From assembly GCF_015475875.1 (NCBI RefSeq), contig NZ_JADKYM010000002.1:1-64000 (forward strand): 64,000 nt of DNA, written 5' to 3'. The notes under the pieces are model-generated. The model was not told the DNA's origin. It did not search any database and saw nothing but the letters and a program-made list of their open reading frames with translations. Both the position numbers and the translations under genes were made by a program. The stretch is from Sphingopyxis solisilvae. GTDB lineage: Bacteria; Pseudomonadota; Alphaproteobacteria; Sphingomonadales; Sphingomonadaceae. Shown here in pieces: positions 8,538 through 9,726 of the stretch. How positions within the stretch are numbered: the stretch's first letter is position 1; each line of letters opens with the position of its first letter.

Positions 8538-9005
8538 TCAGTCGGCGGCCTGCGATTGCGGACCGCGCGCCGCGCGTTCGGCGAGGGTGGAGCGCTGGGC
8601 AGCCACCGGCCTTTTCTGCTTCGCCGCCGCCGCCGCTTCCTCGCCCAAAGTTTCGCGGGTCACCTTGTCGGCCTCCGCCGAATCATATGCGACGCCCATC
8701 ATGTCGGCGAGGCGCTGATATTCTGCGCGTTTTTCGGCGTTTCGGCGGGTCGTCTCCTTTGCGCGTGCGACCCAGTCGGCGCGAATCTCGTCGGCGCCGC
8801 GGTCCTGCTTCCAATTTTCGAAATAGATGATCTTCGGCTGTGGCTTCTCGTAGGGAATCAGATGTTCCGAAAATCCGTAAAACACGACCAGCGGAAGAAC
8901 GAGCGCCACCCCCCAGCTCGCCCAGCGATGCGGGCGCGGTTGGCGGATATAGGCCCAGAAATCCGACAGGCCGCCGCCAACATCGACAGGTTTGAACATT
9001 CGCAT
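8538..9005 (-). CDS. Hypothetical membrane-anchored protein
   Basis: This 155-residue protein has one hydrophobic segment near residues 29-48 (WGVALVLPLVVFYGF), a charged region with YFENWKQDRGADEIRADWVAR, and an Ala-rich C-terminus. That suggests an N-in, single-pass membrane protein with a periplasmic or extended helical tail. I recognise no family. It sits directly upstream of ribD (5 bp), so the two are probably co-transcribed, although nothing ties it to riboflavin. A second Met at residue 3 is an alternative start. Confidence 0.75.
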   Translation of the reverse strand: MRMFKPVDVGGGLSDFWAYIRQPRPHRWASWGVALVLPLVVFYGFSEHLIPYEKPQPKIIYFENWKQDRGADEIRADWVARAKETTRRNAEKRAEYQRLADMMGVAYDSAEADKVTRETLGEEAAAAAKQKRPVAAQRSTLAERAARGPQSQAAD

Positions 9006-9082: not shown

Positions 9083-9137
9083 ATTGCAAATTTTGCAATT
9101 ACAGATGCTCATTTCGCAGTTGCACAATTTTTTGTGC
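9083..9137. promoter_or_regulatory. Two operator-like dyads at the candidate sRNA promoter
   Basis: A perfect dyad ATTGCAAA-T-TTTGCAAT occupies 9083-9099. A second, GCACAA-TTTT-TTGTGC, occupies 9122-9137 and overlaps the presumed -35 and spacer of the small RNA promoter. The region is markedly AT-rich compared with its surroundings. The same gap also holds the upstream region of the minus-strand gene ending at 9005, so the sites could serve either side. Confidence 0.45.
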
Positions 9138-9147
9138 GCTGCAATAT
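9120..9147 (+). promoter_or_regulatory. Candidate sigma-70-type promoter of the small RNA
   Basis: TTGCAC (9120-9125) is followed after 16 bp by CAATAT (9142-9147); an alternative -10 is AATATG with a 17-bp spacer. The predicted start point falls at about 9153, exactly at the first base of a short hairpin. This is a visual match only. Confidence 0.4.
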
Positions 9148-9152
9148 GACAC

Positions 9153-9213
9153 TGCCTTTTAGGCATCCTCTCCCAAAACTTTCATGGGCCGCCCCTCGGG
9201 CGGCCCTTTTTTT
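9153..9213 (+). ncRNA. Candidate small regulatory RNA with anti-Shine-Dalgarno stretch
   Basis: From a plausible start at about 9153 the transcript would begin with a small hairpin (TGCC-TTTTA-GGCA, 9153-9165). It continues with the single-stranded pyrimidine-rich stretch TCCTCTCCC (9166-9174) and ends in a rho-independent terminator. The CCUCUCCC segment is complementary to Shine-Dalgarno sequences, a feature of several alphaproteobacterial trans-acting sRNAs. No plus-strand protein gene lies upstream within 2 kb that would need this terminator. The T-run follows only the plus-strand orientation. Length is about 61 nt. Identity as an sRNA is inference. Confidence 0.5.
9186..9213 (+). terminator. 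Rho-independent terminator
   Basis: There is a perfect 9-bp stem, GGGCCGCCC (9186-9194) with GGGCGGCCC (9198-9206), a 3-nt loop CTC and a run of seven T residues (9207-9213). It is oriented on the plus strand; the opposite direction has no T-run next to the stem. Confidence 0.85.
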
Positions 9214-9264
9214 CGACCTTTTTGGTTGAGAGTGCGATTCGCCGTTTCCGGCACGGCGCGCGAA

Positions 9265-9726
9265 TCAGTCCTGGCGCGGCAGCCGTTTCTCGAATCGCCG
9301 CACTTCGGCGATAAAGCTGCCCGGCAACGCGGTCGGCTGGCCGCTGTCGCTGTCGATATGCGCATAACCGATTTCGATGTCGGTCAGCCGGTCCGTACCC
9401 CGAAATATGCCGCAGTGGATCGTGAAGCTGGTCCGCCCGATCGCGCTGATCCGCGCCGCGATCGTGATCAACTCGTCCAGCCGCGCCGGCGAATGATAAT
9501 CGATTTCGCAATGCGTTTCACGGATGTCTGTACCATATTGGTCAAAATACGGTCCCGGTTGTCCTTCGCCGAGCGCGCGAAAATATTCGGTCACCCCGAT
9601 GTCCGCATAAACCAGATAATTGCCGTTGAAGACGATATTCTGTCCGTCGATCTCGTTGAAGCGCACGCGCACGCGCTCCTGCACGCGGAAATCGTCGAGC
9701 GGCACGGCGCTGCGCGGGTCGGTCAT
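9265..9726 (-). CDS. Acyl-CoA thioesterase, 4HBT (hotdog) family
   Basis: This 153-residue hotdog-fold protein has the 4HBT signature region RVRFNEIDGQNIVFNGNY (about residues 20-37), where the Asp is the usual catalytic position, followed by YADIGVTEYFRA. It probably hydrolyses an acyl-CoA thioester; the substrate is unknown. I chose the start at 9726 because the upstream part of the open frame overlaps the aminopeptidase gene. That gene ends only 8 bp before this ATG on the same strand, so the pair may be co-transcribed. Confidence 0.85.
   Translation of the reverse strand: MTDPRSAVPLDDFRVQERVRVRFNEIDGQNIVFNGNYLVYADIGVTEYFRALGEGQPGPYFDQYGTDIRETHCEIDYHSPARLDELITIAARISAIGRTSFTIHCGIFRGTDRLTDIEIGYAHIDSDSGQPTALPGSFIAEVRRFEKRLPRQD

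Follow-up and report, generated by a model that had tools for sequence, protein, structure and literature searches.

A SuhB small RNA of Sphingopyxis solisilvae with a probable PhaR operator over its promoter and a family-specific pairing core

Between two minus-strand protein genes of Sphingopyxis solisilvae, promoter-like hexamers on the plus strand are followed closely by a small hairpin, a CU-rich stretch, and a strong terminator. Does this arrangement specify an independent small RNA (sRNA), is that RNA new, and what would control it? We addressed these questions within the window, meaning the whole 64-kb stretch of DNA analyzed here, and by comparison with related genomes and with published alphaproteobacterial sRNAs.

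A SuhB orthologue

A search of the 64-kb window against Rfam gave a single match, to RF00519 (suhB/mmgR), at positions 9147 to 9221 on the plus strand. The score of 59.4 bits exceeds the curated gathering cut-off of 41 bits that served as the threshold for family membership, and the alignment covers the full length of the model (1 to 77). This score is the decisive evidence that the locus specifies an independent sRNA beyond chance. Other Rfam families, SorY and BjrC1505 among them, scored far below their own cut-offs. The predicted 61-nt transcript (9153 to 9213, plus strand) has the RF00519 architecture of a 5' hairpin, a single-stranded CU-rich linker, and an intrinsic terminator. The hairpin, TGCCU-UUU-AGGCA, occupies 9153 to 9165. 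It is followed at 9167 to 9174 by an exposed anti-Shine-Dalgarno stretch, CCUCUCCC (DNA letters CCTCTCCC), which is unpaired in the fold and is the predicted pairing region. The terminator (9186 to 9213), identified by terminator scan, fold, and conservation, consists of a 9-bp stem (9186 to 9206) and seven Ts (TTTTTTT, 9207 to 9213), and it ranks strongest among eight terminator-like sites in 9 kb. Folding of the RNA yields -26.8 kcal/mol, whereas shuffled versions average -15.7 (z = -4.8); none of 200 shuffles did as well. The promoter (9120 to 9147, plus strand), recognized from sequence and conservation, comprises a -35 hexamer, TTGCAC (9120 to 9125), a 16-nt spacer, and a -10 hexamer, CAATAT (9142 to 9147). 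Both hexamers are weak when judged against the Escherichia coli consensus (three of six positions each), and they were not among the sites listed by our promoter scan. An earlier note on this DNA had described all of these elements, and each was found where the note had placed it.

Conservation was assessed across 25 syntenic Sphingopyxis loci, including that of S. granuli NBRC 100800. Hairpin, CCUCUCCC, and terminator are kept in 25 of 25, so the RNA passes the check on related genomes that the earlier note had proposed. Length (about 61 nt) and sequence are likewise conserved at every locus, as expected of SuhB in this genus. The hairpin appears as a near-invariant GCCTTTTAGGC, the block GCCTTTTAGGCATCCTCTCCC varies little or not at all, and exchanges of G-C for A-T in the terminator stem keep its pairing (CCGCC/GGCGG versus CCACC/GGTGG). 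TTGC(A/G) and TGCAATA are kept in all 25 promoters, and upstream conservation reaches about 70 nt. A plain MAFFT alignment across genera, made in an attempt at covariation analysis, misaligned the two hairpins.

An RNA of this name has been studied within the genus. According to a review of S. granuli TFA (PMC6563040), TFA SuhB is a 61-nt RNA, as defined by differential RNA sequencing (dRNA-seq) and Northern blotting (Garcia-Romero 2018, cited therein). The syntenic locus in the S. granuli type strain NBRC 100800, on which we judged the likeness, has the same hairpin, CCUCUCCC, and terminator. Because this locus shares its parts with ours, and because our predicted 61 nt equal the 61 nt found in TFA, synteny and sequence identify the locus as suhB, a gene already known, and its product as the orthologue of an experimentally known RNA. 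The earlier note read the locus as an sRNA of alphaproteobacterial type that exposes an anti-Shine-Dalgarno stretch and has its own promoter and terminator. This interpretation is supported, and the note's estimate of about 60 nt agrees with the length given for TFA. The note did not recognize the known SuhB/MmgR family; its term "candidate" thus understates the case, and taken at its word it would overstate the novelty of the locus. The best overall explanation, a suhB sRNA that pairs with ribosome-binding sites, is one that we hold with high confidence; control by PhaR, taken by itself, is less certain.

The genome has one suhB copy by RF00519 search, and at least one RF00519 match was found in 58 of 60 relatives. 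Several Sphingopyxis genomes (G003, G004, G006, G008, G009, G012, G014, G028, and others) carry a second, weaker match of 29 to 49 bits, possibly a paralogue missing from the present genome.

Control of suhB

The promoter carries a probable operator for PhaR/AniA, the sensor of the cell's carbon-storage polymer. This operator, TTTTTGTGCGCTGCAATATGA (9129 to 9149), lies over the -10 hexamer with its center at about -14 and matches perfectly the experimentally defined Sinorhizobium meliloti motif, WNWD2NYGCRNYGCRNH2WNW (PMC12542648). At the S. meliloti mmgR promoter, where binding of PhaR has been proven by electrophoretic mobility shift assay (EMSA), the site is listed 13 nt from the transcription start site (PMC12542648), the same place in the promoter as here. 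The palindromic form of the motif has its sole match in the 64-kb window at 9129 to 9149. Across the 3.4-Mb genome it occurs at 6 sites, versus 4 for a reversed-pattern control, and since these counts are so close, the case for PhaR rests on where the sites stand. Two of the six stand just upstream of the only phasin gene detected in the genome, which comes after phaC. These two PhaR-type operators are 48 bp apart (L069/L070, G000:C46:165539-165607), and the second overlaps a -10-like sequence. Each of the three congeners checked has such a pair, identically spaced, ahead of its phasin gene, and pairs 47 to 48 bp apart were found in most genomes of a multi-genome motif search. S. meliloti phaP1 and phaP2 likewise have two motif copies each. 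Direct pairing of SuhB with the phasin mRNA was also considered; the pairing energy does not support it, as no strong pairing with the phasin 5' end was found (-10.4 kcal/mol versus a random mean of -12.5).

All 25 named Sphingopyxis loci have the PhaR core in their suhB promoters. The motif is complete in 22 of them, and the other three miss the full consensus by an arm base. The box was found at 3 of 10 suhB loci from other genera of Sphingomonadaceae and at none of 13 from other families of the order. PhaR itself (L064, PF07879 and PF05233), Hfq, PhaC, and the phasin are all encoded in the genome. The motif, its placement and its conservation, together with the S. meliloti example, suggest that PhaR probably represses suhB at the -10 operator and that polyhydroxybutyrate (PHB) granules, by titrating PhaR, would relieve this repression, as at mmgR. 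With PhaR drawn off by granules, SuhB would report carbon surplus. Such repression would also explain a published observation: the TFA review describes suhB as expressed when growth is fast and names PHB as promoting this expression (PMC6563040). A literature search that covered neither of the primary papers Garcia-Romero 2018 and Lagares 2017 turned up no mention of a PhaR box at suhB, and the operator is a modest addition to what is known of this RNA.

Other conserved repeats lie nearby. The inverted repeat ATTGCA-N5-TGCAAT (9083 to 9099), centered at about -62, is kept upstream of Sphingopyxis suhB; where present in a Sphingopyxis genome, its exact form occurs once, at suhB, and related RTTGC-N7-GCAAC dyads precede suhB in other genera of Sphingomonadaceae. 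The position of the dyad would suit an activator. By eye, it does not fit what we take to be the NtrC type of site, TGCACY-N5-RGTGCA, and no NtrC site was identified at suhB here, a point of difference from MmgR. Around the -35 hexamer, TTTCGCAGTTGCA (within 9112 to 9124) is near-invariant in Sphingopyxis and has a counterpart, TTTCGCACTTGCA, in several other genera of Sphingomonadaceae; it may belong to the site of another regulator. Because both the -62 dyad and TTTCGCAGTTGCA are conserved, one or more additional regulators probably act here. In an alternative reading, suhB is made as described above, the TGC/GCA repeats of its promoter bind some other regulator, for example one of growth rate or nitrogen, and the effect of PHB is indirect. 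The same TFA review describes growth rate as controlling suhB (PMC6563040). Against this stand the perfect PhaR consensus at suhB, an operator position shared with mmgR, and the double occurrence of the motif upstream of a phasin gene, a typical PhaR target. We regard the alternative as a serious but lesser possibility, and direct repression by PhaR as the reading to be favored.

The pairing core and its targets

The α-r8 RNAs are defined by an internal single-stranded 10-mer, UUUCCUCCCU (PMC12559287). The pairing stretch in Sphingopyxis, AUCCUCUCCC, is a variant of this canonical sequence: the aligned 10 nt are UCCUCUCCCA, with just the CUCCC core in common. Because it lacks the 10-mer UUUCCUCCCU, we file the RNA as RF00519/SuhB with a variant core and not as a strict α-r8 member. 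Of 147 genomes sampled from the order, 32 contain GCATCCTCTCCCAAAACTT with at most one mismatch; every one belongs to Sphingomonadaceae (about half of that family's sample), and the pattern is absent from the sampled genomes of the other families. The 13 loci examined from those families of Sphingomonadales have the canonical core. A pairing core specific to the family is thus a second modest addition to the known RNA.

The relatives of SuhB indicate how it might act. MmgR of S. meliloti (α-r8), whose name RF00519 also carries, shares its covariance model and architecture but is 77 nt long, versus 61 nt predicted here, and has what is taken as the canonical core, UUUCCUCCCU, in place of AUCCUCUCCC. 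SisA-D of Caulobacter crescentus (α-R8) have in common with it a weak hairpin, a single-stranded anti-Shine-Dalgarno core, an intrinsic terminator, and Hfq; they differ in their four copies, canonical 10-mer, and unrelated promoters. AbcR1 and AbcR2 (α-r15), described as only partly similar to the suhB model, bind Hfq and have CU-rich anti-Shine-Dalgarno motifs as SuhB does, but they are 114 to 120 nt long with two such motifs and three stem-loops. TFA SuhB is of the same genus, Rfam name, and length; its target thnR, of the tetralin genes, is strain specific.

SuhB would then be a monocistronic, trans-acting sRNA, for which RNA polymerase would start near 9153 and stop at 9213. Assisted by Hfq, the unpaired CCUCUCCC would pair with GA-rich ribosome-binding sites in mRNA 5' ends, lowering translation. 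Hfq is here a single polypeptide with two Hfq domains (L124, 1552 to 1980), and such tandem Hfq proteins are known in sphingomonads. Two precedents suggest, by analogy, that SuhB should mask ribosome-binding sites in this organism. The TFA RNA is Hfq-dependent, binds the thnR 5' untranslated region (UTR), and lowers thnR translation, according to the review (PMC6563040), and in Caulobacter the anti-Shine-Dalgarno 10-mer of SisA mediates repression of a TonB-receptor mRNA by validated base pairing (PMC12559287). That many mRNAs are targeted in the present genome is plausible. The pattern GGGAGAGG-N3-12-ATG has 26 sites in the genome versus 1 in a reversed control, a difference confounded by ordinary Shine-Dalgarno sequences, for which reason we do not claim these sites as SuhB targets; some of the matches fall in hairpins or in short spurious frames. 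Two GGGAGAGG sites lie upstream of genes that by eye resemble those for TonB-dependent receptors (L091 and L092; compare the SisA targets), and further sites lie upstream of a LacI-type regulator and an MFS-type transporter.

Caulobacter has a sponge for a relative of this RNA, and SuhB might by the same token act mainly as, or against, a sponge, pairing with other sRNAs instead of mRNAs, in the manner of CrfA with SisA. The direct 5' UTR regulation of thnR, which the TFA review reports from within the genus, makes this very unlikely.

Genomic context

The genes flanking suhB both lie on the minus strand. On one side, at 8538 to 9005, is a gene for a conserved 155-amino-acid protein with no Pfam match; it sits between ribD and suhB, and was found at 26 genome loci, nearly all in Sphingopyxis. 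On the other, at 9265 to 9726, is a 4HBT thioesterase gene. Directly 3' of the terminator, CGACCTTTTTGGTTGAG (9214 to 9231) is kept in many Sphingopyxis loci and may be part of the 3' end of the thioesterase gene. No credible plus-strand gene enters the terminator, which, as the earlier note had held, serves no protein gene. That the hairpin and T-run are a mere terminator or the 3' end of a neighboring transcript is therefore scarcely credible: although the element adjoins protein genes and its terminator is strong, we reject this reading because both neighbors run on the minus strand, and the conservation of the entire 61 nt together with the promoter, the RF00519 match, and the detection of the orthologue as a discrete 61-nt RNA (PMC6563040) all speak against it.

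Conclusions

The RNA itself is known; what the present analysis adds is a probable PhaR operator and a pairing core peculiar to the family. We think it somewhat probable that PhaR directly represses Sphingopyxis suhB and that stored PHB thereby turns on this anti-Shine-Dalgarno sRNA, which would lower expression of catabolic and uptake genes. The figure in the TFA review draws unknown steps as dotted lines (PMC6563040). If our reading is true, it would close the gap between PHB and catabolite repression that is left in the published account of S. granuli TFA, and it offers a testable mechanism, running from stored PHB through SuhB to catabolite repression, for pollutant-degrading sphingomonads. 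The rhizobial circuit of PHB, PhaR, and sRNA would then extend to sphingomonads, in a version whose pairing core is altered. The different core found in Sphingomonadaceae should change the set of targets of the sRNA.
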